DNA of 57,567 nt, from NCBI GenBank assembly GCA_016213895.1, contig JACQZJ010000049.1, positions 1-57,567 on the forward strand, read 5' to 3'. Source of the DNA: Planctomycetota bacterium (GTDB taxonomy: Bacteria > Planctomycetota > B15-G4 > JADJEK01). The stretch's first letter is position 1, and every line of letters begins with the position of its first letter. Of the stretch, positions 26,891 through 56,799 are shown in pieces. The notes below the pieces were generated by a model that was given only the letters and a program-made list of their open reading frames with translations, was not told where the DNA came from and made no database searches. A program made the position numbers and the translations under genes.

Positions 26891-27301
26891 TCAAGTGTAT
26901 CGTACCGGGGACCGGCCGCGGCGGCCGCCGCGACTTGCTGGCCGGCCGGGCACGTGGGCCTGCGCCGGCGTGTGGAGGGCGGGAAGTCCGCGGCGGATAG
27001 ACGCGCGGCCCTCCGGCGAGTCCTCGAACAGGCGCGCGAGGAGGTCTTGGAGCGTGCGGCGGCGGGTGGCAGCCGGATCGACCACATCGCGATAGGCGTA
27101 ACTGCGAGAGACTCTCTCGCGGGCCAGCCATCCCCTCGCCTCCATGCGGCGGAGCACGGCCAGCGCCGTGTTGTTCGTGGGCCGCTTCTCGCGCGGGAGG
27201 CGCTCGCGCGCCGCGTGGGAGGTGGCGGGGGCATCCCGCCACAGCACGTCGAGCAGCGCCAGCTCCAGCCGGCCGGGCGTGCGGAGGTGCGTGGCGGTCA
27301 T
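26891..27301 (-). pseudogene. BlaI/MecI/CopY-type repressor gene with frameshifted C-terminus
   Basis: Residues ~10-95 are a clear BlaI-type winged helix: LRTPGRLELALLDVLWRDAP, then NNTALAVLRRMEARGWLARE and RRRTLQDLLARLFEDSPEG. It closely resembles the intact repressor at 49881. After SPEG the sequence becomes Arg/Gly/Pro-rich (GRASIRRGLPALHTPAQAHV) instead of the helical dimerisation segment of the intact copy. This indicates a frameshift or deletion near 27015. No BlaR-type sensor gene is beside it. It could still make a DNA-binding fragment, but normal dimerisation looks lost. Confidence 0.65.
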
Positions 27302-49880: not shown

Positions 49881-50273
49881 TCAGGAACGGTTCTTCGCCG
49901 GCGCTTCCCTCCTCGTCGCGAGCAGAGCCTCGATCCTCTCCAGCTCTTTCGCCGTGAGCCGGCGATCGGAAACGAGCTGAGCGACCAGTTCCTCTGGCGA
50001 GTCGTCGAACAGGCGCGCGAGCAGGTCCTTGAGCGTGCGGCGGCGGATGGAATCGCGATCCACGGCGGCGAGATAGACGTGGCTGCGCGAGACCTTCTCC
50101 CTGGTAAGCCACCCCTTCGCCTCCATGCGCCGCAGAACCGTGAGCACTGTGCTCGAGGTCGGCTTCTTCCTGCCGTGGAGGCGCTCCCGCGCCTGCTGCG
50201 CCGTGGCGGGGCCGTCCCGCCACAGGACCTCGAGCAGGGCCAGCTCCAAGCGGCCGGGGGCATGCACGGGCAT
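49881..50273 (-). CDS. BlaI/MecI/CopY-type transcriptional repressor
   Basis: The 130-residue protein has the full family layout: winged helix (PGRLELALLEVLWRDGPATA, STVLTVLRRMEAKGWLTRE, SRSHVYLAAVDRDSIRRRTL) and a helical dimerisation tail (LVSDRRLTAKELERIEALL). The ATG at 50273 is 5 bases after the stop of the BlaR-like gene. The order is therefore sensor then repressor, the reverse of staphylococcal blaR1-blaI by strand position but on one transcript. It probably binds the ACTAC-N4-GTAGT palindrome at 52854-52869. Cleavage site residues cannot be assigned. The truncated relative at 26891 is a close paralogue. Confidence 0.9.
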   Translation of the reverse strand: MPVHAPGRLELALLEVLWRDGPATAQQARERLHGRKKPTSSTVLTVLRRMEAKGWLTREKVSRSHVYLAAVDRDSIRRRTLKDLLARLFDDSPEELVAQLVSDRRLTAKELERIEALLATRREAPAKNRS

Positions 50274-50278
50274 TGCGG

Positions 50279-52798
50279 TCAATCTCCGGAGACGCGCGAG
50301 AAGAACCCGACGCTCACCTGGCTCGTCGCCTTCCACTGCCCCATCTCGACCTCGATGCTCCATTCGCCGGGCGTGCCCGACCCGAGCGCCTTGGCCTCGA
50401 CACGAACGCTCCTCCCGTCCTCCAGGATCACGAAGCCCTCTCCCTCCACGAGCCGCACGCCATTCACGCTCACCTTCAGGGCCTTGCGATCGATCGGCGC
50501 CGGGAACTGATACGTCTGCAGGGCGACGCCGTCGACCCAGAGCTGGACCAGGTCCCTGTCATGGTCGAGCGTTCGGCCCTCGACTAGCACGACGCGCTGC
50601 GTCTCGTTGTCGAACAGGAAGTCCTCACCGCGCGTCCACTCGATGGTCTCGCCCTCCCCCTGCCGAGGCTTCACGGTCAGCTTCCAGGCGTTGCCCTGAA
50701 CTGGCGACTGCGGCACGAAGACGCGCGGATCGCCGGTGGACCAGAGGGGCGTGGACTCGAGGTGCTGGCCGCCGGGGCCGAGCACGGGGCGGCGAAGCGG
50801 CGGCCCGGGATTGCCCAGGATCTCGGGACCGCGCGGGTTGCTGCCGTGGCTGAAAACCGTCACGCCATGCGCCGAGGCTACCTGGTAGCGCAGGAAGTAG
50901 AGGGCGTCCGGGCCGCAGTCCTCGGACCTCTTGAACGAGATCGTGCCAATCGCCGCGTCCACGTCGTAGTCGACGCCGCGTTCGGCGACCTTCTCGCCGA
51001 TGACCACCTGGACCGACTCGGGTACGAGCCCGGCGATCGTCCAGGTCCACGGTACCGCCCGCTGGCCGTACGCGGTGACAATCTCCTGCGCGGCGTCGAC
51101 CGGCACGCGCATCTCCAGCAGGCCGTCCTCCGCGTGATAGGCGAAGTGGGTCTTAAGGTCGAGCCTGCGCGGTTCCGTGGCCGCTGTCCCGGGCTTCGGC
51201 ATGTCGGCGATCGTCACGGCCTCCACCGTGGAGAGGCCGACTCCCAGCCGGAAGAAGCCCGGCCGGTCGCTGGCAACGAGCGCCGCTCTGGTGAGGTTCG
51301 CCAGCTCCGGAGGGAGTCTGGGCCTCTTCGGTCCTTCGCCAGCGAAGCCCATGAAACTCGTGAAGATGCCCGGCCTGTCCTCATAGGACAGGGTGAAGCG
51401 CCGGCCGGTCCAGGCCTCGTCGAAGCGCAGCAGGCGCACGGTCCGGGTCTTCACGTCCACGGTGAAGTCCTTGCCGAGGACGAGCGCCTCGTCCCCGAGG
51501 GTGATCCGCACCCGGTTGGAGCAGAGCTGCGATACGTTGAAGACCCAGGGAACCGCGCGTTCGCCGTGAGCCTCAAGAGCCCGCGCGTTCTCGATGGGCA
51601 CGCGGACCTCGAGGATCTCCGCGTCAGGGTGGTAGGTCCAGTCCGCGGAGGGGATCTCCTTCCCGTCGAGTTCGACCCTGGACACGCTGGTCAGCCCAAA
51701 GGAGAGGCGGAAGCGCCCCGGCTCCCCGGTCTCGACGGCAGAGGTGGAGATCTCGTCCGCCGGTTCGGCCGCCGCCGCTCGCTCGAGGAGGAGCAGGGAG
51801 GCCGCGCCGGCGAGGAGCACACCCGCGCCGGCGGCGAACAGAAAGGGATGTCGCGAGGTCTTGAACCTGGCGTGGGAAAGCAGCATCTCGATTCTCCTTT
51901 TCAGCATGGAGGCGCCTTCTCCCAGGGGCGCGACTGACCGAATCAGGCGATGGCCCGCCAGGAGGCCGCGCCGCGCCGCGGCGACCAGCACGCTGGCGTA
52001 ATCTTCGGGACGGCCGAGGGCGCGCACGACCGCCAGGTCCACCGCCCTCTCGCGCTCGAAGGCGGCCTGGCGGAGGACCAGGTGGGTGAGCGGCTGGAAC
52101 CAGAACACCGTGCGCGTGACGCGGCCGAGGAAGTGCAGCAGCAGGTCGTGGCGGCAATGGTGGAGGATCTCGTGGGCGAGGGTCGCCTCGACCTCGGCGC
52201 CGGCTTCGATGTTGGCCGGCACCAGGATGAGCGGACGGAGGATGCCGGCGGCGAAGGGGCCGGGGACGTCGCTCGCGGAGAGCAGCCGGATCCCGCGCCG
52301 CACCCCGAGCGTTCGGCTCAGCTCGCGGAAGCGAGCGAGCAGGTCAACGCGCTCGGCCGGCCGTGCCTCAGCGAGGACTCGGGCGAGGCGGCGGCGCCGC
52401 CGCAGGTCGCGAAGCGCGAAGAGGAAGACGCCGGCGATCCACGCAGCGAGGAGGAACGGCGCGGGATCACGGTCGGCCTTGGGTTCGACCCGCTCGCCGA
52501 GCCACTTGCCGGGAGCGTTCCAGCTCTCGCTCAGGGCGGCGATCCCGACCGCGAGGCCTCGGTGCGGCGCGGCAACGGAGCTGGCGGGGGCTCTGGGTCG
52601 CGGCAATGAGGAGATGGGCACGCGGAGCGTCGCGGTGAGCCAGAGGAACGGAAGCAGGAGCAGCGAGGCCAGGAGCGTGGCGTGGCAGTGAGCAGGACAG
52701 CGGCGCAGGAGGCTCGCGCGAAGCAGCAAGGCGACGGCGAGGAGCAGCGTCGAGCGCCACAAAAACGGGCCGAGGGCATCGATCGAGAGGAGCGGCAT
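50279..52798 (-). CDS. BlaR1-like M56 membrane metalloprotease with unusual tandem sensor domains
   Basis: The start at 52798 has GGAGG 5 bases upstream; an ATG 4 codons earlier overlaps that site. The N-terminal ~330 residues are BlaR1/MecR1-like: hydrophobic helices, the zinc motif HEILHH (H209, E210, H213), FERERAVDLAVV with a likely third ligand, and a last helix (PFLFAAGAGVLLAGAASLLL). Classical BlaR1 then has a penicillin-binding domain with SxxK and KTG motifs; none is present. Instead there are ~480 residues of beta-rich sequence. Two repeat units each contain FRLxxGLxxVxxV, EVRVPI/EMRVPV, RAVPWVFNVSQL/RAVPWTWTIAGL and a following RITLGDEALVLGKDFTVD-type segment; a third, divergent unit follows. 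The signal sensed is unknown. Confidence 0.88.
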   Translation of the reverse strand: MPLLSIDALGPFLWRSTLLLAVALLLRASLLRRCPAHCHATLLASLLLLPFLWLTATLRVPISSLPRPRAPASSVAAPHRGLAVGIAALSESWNAPGKWLGERVEPKADRDPAPFLLAAWIAGVFLFALRDLRRRRRLARVLAEARPAERVDLLARFRELSRTLGVRRGIRLLSASDVPGPFAAGILRPLILVPANIEAGAEVEATLAHEILHHCRHDLLLHFLGRVTRTVFWFQPLTHLVLRQAAFERERAVDLAVVRALGRPEDYASVLVAAARRGLLAGHRLIRSVAPLGEGASMLKRRIEMLLSHARFKTSRHPFLFAAGAGVLLAGAASLLLLERAAAAEPADEISTSAVETGEPGRFRLSFGLTSVSRVELDGKEIPSADWTYHPDAEILEVRVPIENARALEAHGERAVPWVFNVSQLCSNRVRITLGDEALVLGKDFTVDVKTRTVRLLRFDEAWTGRRFTLSYEDRPGIFTSFMGFAGEGPKRPRLPPELANLTRAALVASDRPGFFRLGVGLSTVEAVTIADMPKPGTAATEPRRLDLKTHFAYHAEDGLLEMRVPVDAAQEIVTAYGQRAVPWTWTIAGLVPESVQVVIGEKVAERGVDYDVDAAIGTISFKRSEDCGPDALYFLRYQVASAHGVTVFSHGSNPRGPEILGNPGPPLRRPVLGPGGQHLESTPLWSTGDPRVFVPQSPVQGNAWKLTVKPRQGEGETIEWTRGEDFLFDNETQRVVLVEGRTLDHDRDLVQLWVDGVALQTYQFPAPIDRKALKVSVNGVRLVEGEGFVILEDGRSVRVEAKALGSGTPGEWSIEVEMGQWKATSQVSVGFFSRVSGD

Positions 52799-52853
52799 CG
52801 CAGCCTCCATCCGACCGTGACGGCATCACTCTACCCATTCGCCCAGGCCGAAC

Positions 52854-52869
52854 AACTACGTGTGTAGTT
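52854..52869. promoter_or_regulatory. BlaI-type operator palindrome
   Basis: AACTACGTGTGTAGTT is a perfect palindrome around a 4-base centre. Its core ACTAC-N4-GTAGT is the classical BlaI/MecI operator pattern. It lies 55 bases upstream of the BlaR-like start and 194 bases before the divergent metalloprotease, so the repressor could control both. On the minus strand, TTGTTC and TAGAGT separated by 16 bases, just after the palindrome, could be the promoter. Confidence 0.75.
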
Positions 52870-53063: not shown

Positions 53064-55526
53064 ATGCTCCAACTCCTTCTTGTTCCTCTCCTCCTGCTGC
53101 CGGTCGAGTTCGGCAGAGCCAACGACTGGATCACGATGGGCGAGGACTGCCGGCTGATCGCCGCCGGGGACGTGGACGGCGACGGCTGCGCCGACGTGGT
53201 CACGGTGAACGGCAACCGCGACCTGTGCCTCGCGGCGTCGGTCCACGGCTGGAAGTCGGCGCCGTGGGCGGTGCTCGCCTCCGCGGTGCCGGAGGGCGAG
53301 GAAGCGCTCGCCTGCGGGGACTTCGTCCCAGAGGCGCCCGGGGACGAGGTCGCGGTCATCTACCCGGACCACGTCGACGTGCGTTTCGACTACCGGGACG
53401 GCCGGCTTCTCGGGGTGCGGTTGCTGGACGAGGGCGCCTCCGGCGAGCCGTTCGCTCGCACGCAGCCGCCGCTTTCTCCCGCCCTCCCGCCGCCTGCCTA
53501 CGAGCCCGAGGCCCTGGTCCTCGACAGCTGCCTTGGGGACGTCTCGGGAGACGGCGCCGCGGACACCCTGACGCTCTACACGTGCACGCGTCCCTATCCG
53601 CACCGGGTTGTGCGCGTCGCGCCGGGCCTGGCCGCGGGAGCGGCGGACGGGGACGGCGACGGGCTGGCCGACGTCGAGGAGGCGGAGTTTGGCACGGATC
53701 CCCGCGACCGGGACAGCGATGGCGACGGGCTCCTGGACGGCTGGGAGGTGAAGGGGCTGCCGCGCGGTGTCCCGCTCGGCGAGCGCATCGGCCTGTTCCA
53801 GTCGGGCGCGCCGGACGCGGACGCGCGGCTCTCTCCGCTGCGCCAGGACGTGATCGTCCTGGTCAGCCCCTTCGAGGGCGTGGATCCGGCGGCCCTTGCC
53901 GCCGAGATCCCGGCGATTCGCCAGCTCTATGCGGAGCTTCACGCGGTGAATCCCGACGGCTCGAGCGGCGTCGCCGTGCATTTTCGGATCGACCCCTGCG
54001 CCATCCCCAAGGCGGATCACACCCGCTTCTGGGGGGACCTCGGCAACGAGCGGCTCGCGCCGCGGGAGCGCGGGCTGCTGCACTGGATGCAGGTCACGCC
54101 GTGGGGCGGGGGGCAGTCCAGCGAAACCGGCGACATGGGCGGCGCCGGCTTCGCGCACGACGTCTTCGCCCACGAGTTCGGCCATCAGTTGTCGCTGTCG
54201 CACACCGGCGATTCGGCGCCAGCCTGGTGTCCGCTCTACACCTCGCTCATGTCCTACGCGTTTTCCTACGGCTTCGACGGCGATCACGCGGCGATCCACT
54301 TCTCGGACGGCCGCTTCCGGGACACGGCGCTGGAGGAGCGCGCGCTCGTGGAGCGTCTGCCGTACCCCTACGAGCAGGTGCGCTACCTGGCGAACGCGCC
54401 GTTCCGCTTCCCCCTCGAGGATGCGGGGGACGGCACCACGAAGATTGACTGGAACCATGATGGCTGGTTCGCGGAGGGCACGGTCGAGGCCGACGTCAAC
54501 TACGGCGGCTCGACCTACTGCGGCATCCGACGCGAGCACGAGGCGATCGGCTCGGCCCCTTGCCTCGCCTACGTGGGGGATGCCTGCTTGCTGCTGGCCG
54601 CGGACCGGACCAGGGATCACCTGTGGCTGAAGACGTACCTCGGGGACGAGAAGTGGTCGGAGAAGCGCGCACTCCCGAACTCGGGAACCGAGCGCGACCC
54701 GGTGCTGGTCGGCGGCAGGGACTTCGGCCTCGTGTTCCACCATCACCTCTACGGTTGGCGGGTCACCCGCTGCGACGCTGGATCCCTCGGCGAGCCCGTG
54801 CCCATCTCTGACCTGCCCGCGCTCGAGCTGAACGCGTGCCGCGTGGGGGAGCGGGTGCTTCTCGTCTCGCGCGGCGACACGAACGAGCTGGAGGCGCGCT
54901 GGCTCACCTTCGCTGCCGGCGACTGCTCGAAACCGGCAGTCTCGGCTCCCATCCTGCTGGAAACGCGTTCGCTGGTCGTGCCGGGGCTCTGCGTCGACCC
55001 CACGGACGGCCGGGTCGTGCTTGTCACCTCCATGAACAACTCGCGCGGCGTCCCATTCTGCATGCGCGTGACCTGGATCAATGTCGCCGGCGACGGCTTG
55101 TGGGAACAGGAGACGCTGTGGACGCGCGGCGAGGCCTCCGGAAACGGCTGCTGCTCGCGGCCGGTGGTCGCGTTCAATCCCGCCGGTCAGCTCAACATCT
55201 TCCACCAGGGCGGCCCGGACGCGACGGGGCAGATGATCGCCTACCGTACCTCGCGCGTCGGCAACAAGGCGCTCGACGAAGGCTGGCTCACCTGCATGCT
55301 CTATGACGTGTGGACGCGCTCCCGCGTGCCCGTCGGCTTCGCCAGCGGCCCGCAGGGGGCGATCTTCGCCTACCGCTGGGACGCGGGCGGAGAGCACATC
55401 AACTGGCTGGCCACCGCCCACGACGGCTTCGGGATCGACCGCGAGCCGATGCGCGACTTCGACGACGGCGAGAAGATCTCGAAGTGGGGGATCCGCCACT
55501 CTATCTTGACGATGCGGAAGGAGTGA
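53064..55526 (+). CDS. Exported metzincin-type zinc metalloprotease with calcium-loop segment
   Basis: The 820-residue protein has a signal peptide (MLQLLLVPLLLLPVEFGRA) and a VCBS-like loop near the start (AAGDVDGDGCADVVTVNG). A thrombospondin-3-like calcium stretch follows (GDGDGLADVEEAEFGTDPRD, then DSDGDGLLDGWEV). The zinc motif is HEFGHQLSLSH (H370, E371, H374, H380), with a Met-turn further on (TSLMSYAF); these define metzincins. The last ~330 residues are beta-propeller-like. The ATG at 53064 is chosen over the longer frame because it begins the signal peptide. It is divergent from the BlaR-like gene with the operator between them, so its expression may depend on that sensor. A decayed copy of its start is at 14118. 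Confidence 0.88.
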   Translation: MLQLLLVPLLLLPVEFGRANDWITMGEDCRLIAAGDVDGDGCADVVTVNGNRDLCLAASVHGWKSAPWAVLASAVPEGEEALACGDFVPEAPGDEVAVIYPDHVDVRFDYRDGRLLGVRLLDEGASGEPFARTQPPLSPALPPPAYEPEALVLDSCLGDVSGDGAADTLTLYTCTRPYPHRVVRVAPGLAAGAADGDGDGLADVEEAEFGTDPRDRDSDGDGLLDGWEVKGLPRGVPLGERIGLFQSGAPDADARLSPLRQDVIVLVSPFEGVDPAALAAEIPAIRQLYAELHAVNPDGSSGVAVHFRIDPCAIPKADHTRFWGDLGNERLAPRERGLLHWMQVTPWGGGQSSETGDMGGAGFAHDVFAHEFGHQLSLSHTGDSAPAWCPLYTSLMSYAFSYGFDGDHAAIHFSDGRFRDTALEERALVERLPYPYEQVRYLANAPFRFPLEDAGDGTTKIDWNHDGWFAEGTVEADVNYGGSTYCGIRREHEAIGSAPCLAYVGDACLLLAADRTRDHLWLKTYLGDEKWSEKRALPNSGTERDPVLVGGRDFGLVFHHHLYGWRVTRCDAGSLGEPVPISDLPALELNACRVGERVLLVSRGDTNELEARWLTFAAGDCSKPAVSAPILLETRSLVVPGLCVDPTDGRVVLVTSMNNSRGVPFCMRVTWINVAGDGLWEQETLWTRGEASGNGCCSRPVVAFNPAGQLNIFHQGGPDATGQMIAYRTSRVGNKALDEGWLTCMLYDVWTRSRVPVGFASGPQGAIFAYRWDAGGEHINWLATAHDGFGIDREPMRDFDDGEKISKWGIRHSILTMRKE

Positions 55527-55617: not shown

Positions 55618-56799
55618 ATGAAGTTGTCGTTCGGTCTCCTCCTGCTGCTGGCGCTCTGTTTCCTCCTCGGCGACGCGGCCAGGGCCTGCTCGGCCTTCCT
55701 CGTGCAGCGAGACGGCCTGGTCCTGGCCGGCAACAACGAGGACTACTGGGACCCGGACACGAAGGTGTGGTTCGTGCCGGGCGACGGGAAGACGTACGGC
55801 CGGGTCTGCTTCGGCTTCGGCAACGGCTTTCCGCAGGGCGGCCTGAACGAGCGGGGGCTCTTCTTCGACGGCTTCGCCACCGCGCCGCTCGAGGCGTCCG
55901 GGTCGAACGACAAGCCTCCTTACCCGGGGAACCTCATCGACGTAGCGCTCGCGGAGTGCGCCACGGTCGCCGAGGTGATCGCCCTGCTCGAGCGCTACAA
56001 CCTCGGGTTCCTCGACAGCGCCATGCTGATGTTCGGCGACCAGAGCGGCGACGCGGTGATCGTCGAGCGGGACAGCTTCGTGAGGAAGGAGGGGCGCTAC
56101 CAGGTGGTGACCAACTTCCACCAGTCGCAGTGCGATCCATCCAAGTACACCTGTCCGCGCTACAGGCTCGCCGACCGCATGCTGAAGGAGAGCAAGGACG
56201 TGTCGGTCGAGCGCTGCCGCCGCATCCTCGCCGCGGTCCATGCCGAGGGGGGCGCGCCGACCCAGTACTCCATGATCTATGACCTGACCCACGGGATCGT
56301 GCGCCTCTACCACTTCCACAACTTCGAGAACGAGGTGGTCATCGATCTCGCCGAAGAATTGAAGAAGGGGGCTCATGCAATGGACCTGCCCTCGCTCTTC
56401 CCGGAGACCTGGGCCTTCACCGCGTTCAAGATGCAAAAGCAGCAGGAGGTCGAGAAGGCCGTGGCCGCGCGGCGCGCGCAGGACATCGATCCGGCGACCT
56501 ACGAGGACTACGTGGGCCGCTACGAGCTGGTGGTGGCGAGCGCCGGCCGCTGGATCATCGCGATCAGCCGCGAGGGGGACCGTCTTCTGTGCCGTTTCCG
56601 CGACGGAGAGCCCGTCGAGATCCTGCCCGAGGCCAAGGACGTCTTCTTCCACGCCGGCCTCGACGGCTCGACCACCTTCCGTTTCGAGCGCTCGGCCGAG
56701 GGACAGGTCATCCGCCTGAAGGCCGCGAACGAGCTGCGCACCTACACGGCCGAGCGGCTCTCCGGCGAAGCGCCGGCGGGCGAGCCCCGCGAGTTGTGA
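55618..56799 (+). CDS. Exported Ntn-hydrolase acylase (choloylglycine hydrolase/penicillin acylase-like)
   Basis: A signal peptide (MKLSFGLLLLLALCFLLGDA) ends so that Cys24 of ACSAFLVQRDG becomes the N-terminal nucleophile, the hallmark of this family. AGNNEDYW and the later VTNFHQS and CPRYRLADRM are further family-type blocks. The last ~110 residues (from DPATYEDYVGRYEL) are an extra beta domain like those trailing some serine beta-lactamase-like proteins. The enzyme would hydrolyse amide bonds outside the cytoplasm; substrates of relatives include bile-acid conjugates, penicillin V and acyl-homoserine lactones. It lies 91 bases after the metalloprotease and may belong to the same unit as the BlaR-like sensor locus. 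That link is inferred. Confidence 0.85.
   Translation: MKLSFGLLLLLALCFLLGDAARACSAFLVQRDGLVLAGNNEDYWDPDTKVWFVPGDGKTYGRVCFGFGNGFPQGGLNERGLFFDGFATAPLEASGSNDKPPYPGNLIDVALAECATVAEVIALLERYNLGFLDSAMLMFGDQSGDAVIVERDSFVRKEGRYQVVTNFHQSQCDPSKYTCPRYRLADRMLKESKDVSVERCRRILAAVHAEGGAPTQYSMIYDLTHGIVRLYHFHNFENEVVIDLAEELKKGAHAMDLPSLFPETWAFTAFKMQKQQEVEKAVAARRAQDIDPATYEDYVGRYELVVASAGRWIIAISREGDRLLCRFRDGEPVEILPEAKDVFFHAGLDGSTTFRFERSAEGQVIRLKAANELRTYTAERLSGEAPAGEPREL

Follow-up and report, generated by a model that had tools for sequence, protein, structure and literature searches.

The window, that is, the whole stretch of 57,567 nucleotides of planctomycetotal DNA that was analysed, carries a minus-strand gene pair for a BlaR1-like protease and a BlaI-type repressor, a candidate operator, and a divergent gene for a secreted protein:

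49881 to 50273, minus strand: BlaI/MecI-family repressor, 130 aa (Pfam PF03965, Penicillinase_R, E 8e-29)
50279 to 52810, minus strand: BlaR1-like membrane metalloprotease of family M56, its sensor built of tandem beta units; translation probably starts at 52798
50336 to 50755, minus strand: sensor unit 3, residues 686–825, divergent, related to units 1 and 2 by way of a domain encoded on contig C97 of the source genome (G000)
50861 to 51286, minus strand: sensor unit 2, residues 509–650
51353 to 51730, minus strand: sensor unit 1, residues 361–486, placed by alignment and modelled as all beta
51785 to 51841, minus strand: last transmembrane-like segment, residues 324–342, directly N-terminal to the sensor and with the highest hydropathy of four (2.23)
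52828 to 52855, minus strand: candidate promoter TTGTTC-16-TAGAGT, its -35 box overlapping the operator edge; the sister species (G001) has the same two boxes unchanged
52855 to 52868, no strand assigned: candidate operator palindrome ACTACGTGTGTAGT, within a 16-bp dyad AACTAC-N4-GTAGTT at 52854–52869
53064 to 55526, plus strand: divergent secreted metzincin-like protein with HEFGHQLSLSH, FG-GAP and TSP3-like motifs, a possible second operator target

The protease reading frame encodes 843 aa counted from the first ATG and 839 aa from the ATG at 52798 (residue 5), the latter being favoured as the start by alignment to the sister species and by a GGAGG, resembling a Shine-Dalgarno sequence, that is conserved there. 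An initial reading made from the sequence alone had recognized a zinc protease by its HEILHH motif. The motif occupies residues 213–218 within an M56 domain at residues 65–310 (Pfam PF05569, E 3e-24, above cut-off), and the HExxH and E-xxx-D gluzincin motifs together with the family profile place the protein in M56. Across the 27 M56 proteins compared from the phylum, H213, E214, H217, D222, E254, D258 and R306 are invariant; Y271 is not among the residues listed as such. In the alignment with Staphylococcus aureus BlaR1, H213ExxH217, D222, E254xxxD258, Y271 and R306 correspond to H201ExxH, D210, E242xxxD246, Y261 and R294, the catalytic residues of that enzyme having been named by a cryo-EM study (PMC9834060). 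Since all of them are conserved, the protease is very probably active. Hydropathy indicated four transmembrane-like segments (residues 12–30, 44–62, 115–133 and 324–342). NCBIfam blaR1_generic gave 70.9 bits against a cut-off of 400, and phmmer against the PDB matched BlaR1 very weakly (E 0.86), the Pfam match being strong.

The repressor gene lies downstream in the same orientation, with five bases (50274–50278) between the protease stop codon and the blaI ATG, as initially described. PF03965 covers residues 7–119 of the product and residues 10–118 match MecI (1sd6, E 1.4e-7), as BlaI structures do over the same span; a winged-helix profile and a dimerisation region thus assign it to the BlaI/MecI family. 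The position aligned to the S. aureus BlaI cleavage site (Asn101-Phe102) reads VAQ-L, and cleavage of the repressor is predicted there, near residues 99–100. In the protease, the alignment shows no conservation of Phe284, at which BlaR1 cleaves itself, and the loop near that site (51880–51950) reads VAP-L. A P1' Leu common to the two would parallel the shared Phe of S. aureus, which is suggestive only. Two further BlaI-like genes were noticed. One, at 26891–27301 on the minus strand of the window, is closely similar to the repressor gene at its N-terminus, is apparently frameshifted after about residue 96 and is followed by a NosD/beta-helix ORF; it looks like a decayed duplicate. The other, elsewhere in the source genome (C59, 66093–66515), has no M56 partner nearby, adjoins ORFs that by eye are folE- and queD-like, and is divergent from an SGNH-type hydrolase-like ORF.

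C-terminal to residue 310, no Pfam family scored above cut-off in the protease. This part is mostly filled (residues 361–825) by three units of about 130 residues, in agreement with the two clear repeats and third, divergent unit first described. Units 1 and 2 align with a score of 157, compared with 27.7±4.6 for shuffles. Unit 3 shows no direct similarity to unit 1 or 2 (P 0.14 and 0.88). However, a domain of a secreted protein encoded on contig C97 of the source genome scores 108 with unit 3 and 55 with each of units 1 and 2 (shuffled control about 28±4.5), and because this bridging domain matches all three, the units are taken to be homologous. No SxxK or KTG motif was found after residue 340 and Pfam detected no transpeptidase domain in the protein, so that the SxxK, SxN and KTG domain of the BlaR1/MecR1 receptor is lacking, as the sequence-only reading had noted. 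The only cysteines of the sensor are C430 and C632, both conserved in the sister species. Between the two species, the sensor (dN/dS about 0.40, NG86) and the protease (about 0.28) are both under purifying selection.

The fold of the sensor was approached by prediction. An AlphaFold model of unit 1 built from an eight-row unit alignment (pLDDT 88.5, pTM 0.76) has eleven strands of at least three residues and no helix of at least four. A degenerate penicillin-binding fold had been named at the outset as the finding that would overturn the assignment; the all-beta, helix-free model argues against it for unit 1, the unit modelled, with units 2 and 3 covered by homology. The modelled unit has no penicillin-binding fold, and the picture of a non-penicillin, tandem all-beta sensor on a BlaR1-type protease is upheld. 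For the entire sensor, an AlphaFold model from two sequences reached a pLDDT of 43.6; parts of unit 3 apart, it could not be used.

Searches for relatives of the unit returned weak matches. The sensor sequence found nothing in the PDB at E below 1, and the eight-row unit profile matched PDB entries only weakly, beta domains of the surface proteins SprA and Sgo0707 aligning with the second half of the unit over 44–62 profile positions only (hmmsearch E 0.0057 and 0.012). In Foldseek of the unit 1 model against the PDB no row reached E 0.001; the top rows, at E 0.014, were the N-terminal part of TSP4, a tailspike of phage CBA120, and the Ig-domain matches were judged to reflect a common beta-sandwich arrangement. 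In a viral library, the best rows had E 5.8e-4 to 1e-2, and the named entries among the first 50 were mostly tailspikes or tail fibres (E 5.8e-4 to 0.04). With VIA, unit residues 4–122 were placed on residues 199–335 of the TSP4 chain with Z 5.9 and an rmsd of 11.6 over both halves, a pattern expected if two half-domains were oriented differently. Between the two halves no sequence homology was detected (hhalign gave a probability of 2%, and hmmsearch scores did not exceed those of shuffled sequences); the two-half reading is a structural one. The XD2/XD3 beta-jellyrolls of TSP4 and T4 gp10 mediate protein–protein assembly (PMC8825819). Like the sensor unit as modelled, XD2 and XD3 of TSP4 (PDB 7rej/7rfo) are all-beta domains of about 60 residues in tandem; unlike in a close relative, TM-scores are 0.3–0.4, identity is 11–18% and the biological setting is different. 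Given these low scores and a Z under 8, the likeness is a lead, not membership.

Because the nearest, albeit weak, structural matches are assembly domains, the signal tilts towards a protein partner. The sequence-only reading had proposed a ligand- or polymer-binding sensor, which was a guess and did not gain from the structural comparison. Such a sensor would bind a soluble ligand or a cell-wall or extracellular polysaccharide through its beta units, and the divergent secreted protein would be induced for degradation or uptake. Repeated beta modules often bind polymers, and a secreted protease-like gene does lie divergent from the operator, in a conserved place. Against this, Pfam found no carbohydrate-binding family in the protease, the nearest matches are those assembly domains, and the spacing from operator to divergent gene is not conserved. 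We consider this alternative rather unlikely.

The sensor had been described as a replacement for the penicillin sensor, a wording that implies derivation and did not stand up to comparison within the phylum. A BlaI homolog lies within about 1.5 kb at 24 of 28 M56 loci, and no penicillin-binding domain was found in 27 M56 proteins among the matches listed, which covered 25 of the 27 families (the other two rank below E 0.0035). M56–BlaI pairs without such a domain are therefore the rule in the phylum. The studied locus shares with these pairs (28 loci) a protease, a repressor and the absence of a penicillin-binding domain. It differs in gene order, blaI mostly coming first elsewhere and the protease here, and in its sensor unit, the others carrying a variety of C-terminal parts, among them HEAT, CarboxypepD_reg and Big_1. 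The search for the repeat in other M56 proteins, proposed at the outset, thus came back empty for the other pairs of the phylum: over 392 phylum genomes and 14 class genomes scored in full, the unit profile was convincing only in two members of the genus, and a scan of genome contigs for the sensor found one locus only, in the sister metagenome-assembled genome. A 29-residue match in another genome (G140, E 0.0045) was regarded as chance.

Outside the M56 sensor, the unit was found again only in a secreted protein resembling thioredoxin, in both species. In the source genome this protein (L033; C97, 4231–6117, plus strand) combines a sensor-type beta unit with a DUF2092-like and a thioredoxin domain; its counterpart in the sister species (L034) lies on the minus strand of contig C190. 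In both species the reading frame continues past an in-frame TGA at the UxxC position (WRCG-UGA-PACREETG...) for roughly another 110 codons. In each genome a tRNA-Sec gene shares the contig, with SelA beside it in the source genome, and in each the UGA is followed by a hairpin, GGAGAC-AGGGA-GUCUCC, whose energy is no better than that of shuffles. The protein is a probable selenoprotein of atypical architecture, and either a candidate partner of the sensor or a lead to a shared ligand.

This distribution raises the alternative that the sensor reads the redox or protein-folding state of the envelope, through C430 and C632 or through docking of the selenocysteine protein. The recurrence of the unit only in a protein with the WRCG-UGA-PAC thioredoxin motif, the encoded tRNA-Sec and SelA, and the retention of both cysteines in the sister species fit such a role. 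Yet two proteins may share a module without interacting, the cysteines occupy non-equivalent places in units 1 and 2, and two species that are 79% identical lend little weight to cysteine conservation; moreover, the genome-wide scan for perfect operators found none near the thioredoxin-like gene. We therefore hold the redox alternative to be improbable. A broader version, in which the unit, three times on the protease and once on the thioredoxin-like protein, is a genus-specific envelope module and the switch reads redox or assembly state by module docking, is highly speculative and would have very little chance of being correct.

The perfect ACTAC-N4-GTAGT palindrome reported at the outset lies 56 bp upstream of the likely protease start codon and has no second match in the window, also when one mismatch is allowed (0.04 expected). 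This dyad, which we take to resemble the known Bla/Mec dyad, makes the site a candidate BlaI operator upstream of M56-blaI, judged by its sequence. The source genome (5.5 Mb) has two perfect palindromes (C27 and C200) and so does the sister genome (C97 and C426); the reversed palindrome gave no match genome-wide. By our own estimate, assuming 65% G+C, about 1.8 per genome are expected at random, so the count by itself is unremarkable. What is remarkable is that all four lie at BlaI–M56 pairs. When the 16-bp dyad was permitted a single mismatch, the source genome yielded one extra site (C35), no more than the reversed control, and this site has no counterpart in the sister genome. Identical arms also occur at two further M56 loci of the phylum (L006 and L023). 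In the intergenic alignment with the sister species, the arms and the 56-bp distance are identical and the N4 spacer differs. The candidate promoter is weak by consensus (7 of 12 matches) and was not picked up by the promoter scan.

The divergent metzincin-like protein has weak Pfam reprolysin and matrixin matches, all below cut-off, and the sister species has a counterpart, 88% identical, at the corresponding place. Its distance from the operator is 195 bp in one species and 160 bp in the other. Since spacing is kept towards the protease start but not towards the divergent gene, the output with the best support from these alignments is autoregulation of M56-blaI; control of the secreted protein is possible. 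Cross-talk with the second BlaI–M56 pair of the source genome (C200, 300–2206) appears plausible from its identical operator arms. That pair also has an imperfect tandem operator copy alongside and is divergent from a secreted-looking 494-aa ORF, which by eye resembles a secretin domain. Apart from the divergent neighbours, perfect sites genome-wide revealed no effector gene, and the switch itself may therefore be the whole output. Downstream of the divergent protease gene, an Ntn-hydrolase-like ORF (55618–56799, plus strand; CBAH below cut-off, fused to DUF3471) was rejected as a conserved target, having no match on the sister contig, which ends about 3 kb past the protease gene.

From the gene anatomy, the catalytic residues, the repressor family, the operator with its rarity and the all-beta unit, we infer that the locus is likely a BlaR1-type switch of regulated proteolysis, its input probably being something other than a beta-lactam. 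The M56 protein would sit in the membrane, its zinc site facing the cytosol and its tandem beta-jellyroll-like units, about 500 residues, lying outside. These units would be engaged or released by a partner in the periplasm or at the surface, most likely a protein and otherwise a ligand, and the protease, thereby activated, would cleave the co-transcribed repressor. Its loss would free the operator beside the M56-blaI promoter and lead to self-induction, and the switch may also act on the second BlaI–M56 locus and on the divergent secreted protease. Few M56–BlaI pairs without a penicillin sensor have a known signal anywhere, and such pairs are common in this phylum; with one operator type, two perfect sites per genome and a modelled sensor unit, the locus offers a clean test case.

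S. aureus BlaR1–BlaI is one of the closest known systems (PMC9834060; PDB 8exs, 8exp). The two share the catalytic equivalents listed above, four transmembrane-like segments with a C-terminal sensor after the last, a BlaI-family partner and a dyad operator. Here, however, three all-beta units stand where BlaR1 has its penicillin-binding sensor, the autocleavage Phe is not conserved, and no beta-lactamase or PBP2a gene was found beside the operator. An indirect beta-lactam response, e.g., one relayed by fragments of peptidoglycan or by an accessory penicillin-binding protein, would suit the repressor family and operator type, and the Mycobacterium tuberculosis BlaR1 homolog has no sensor domain, its beta-lactam detection being open (PMC9834060). 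Such a response seems very unlikely for a protein without a penicillin-binding domain and with no beta-lactamase among the neighbours examined, the divergent cluster offering only the weak CBAH-like Ntn hydrolase. A published pair with an input other than a beta-lactam is cyanobacterial PetP–PetR, in which a BlaR1-family protease acts on a BlaI-family repressor in response to copper, PetRP controlling plastocyanin and cytochrome c6 (PMC7896320). In view of such published precedents and of the many pairs in the phylum, the studied system is a variant of an already known design, an M56–BlaI pair with a probably non-beta-lactam input, and its sensor unit is the unusual part.
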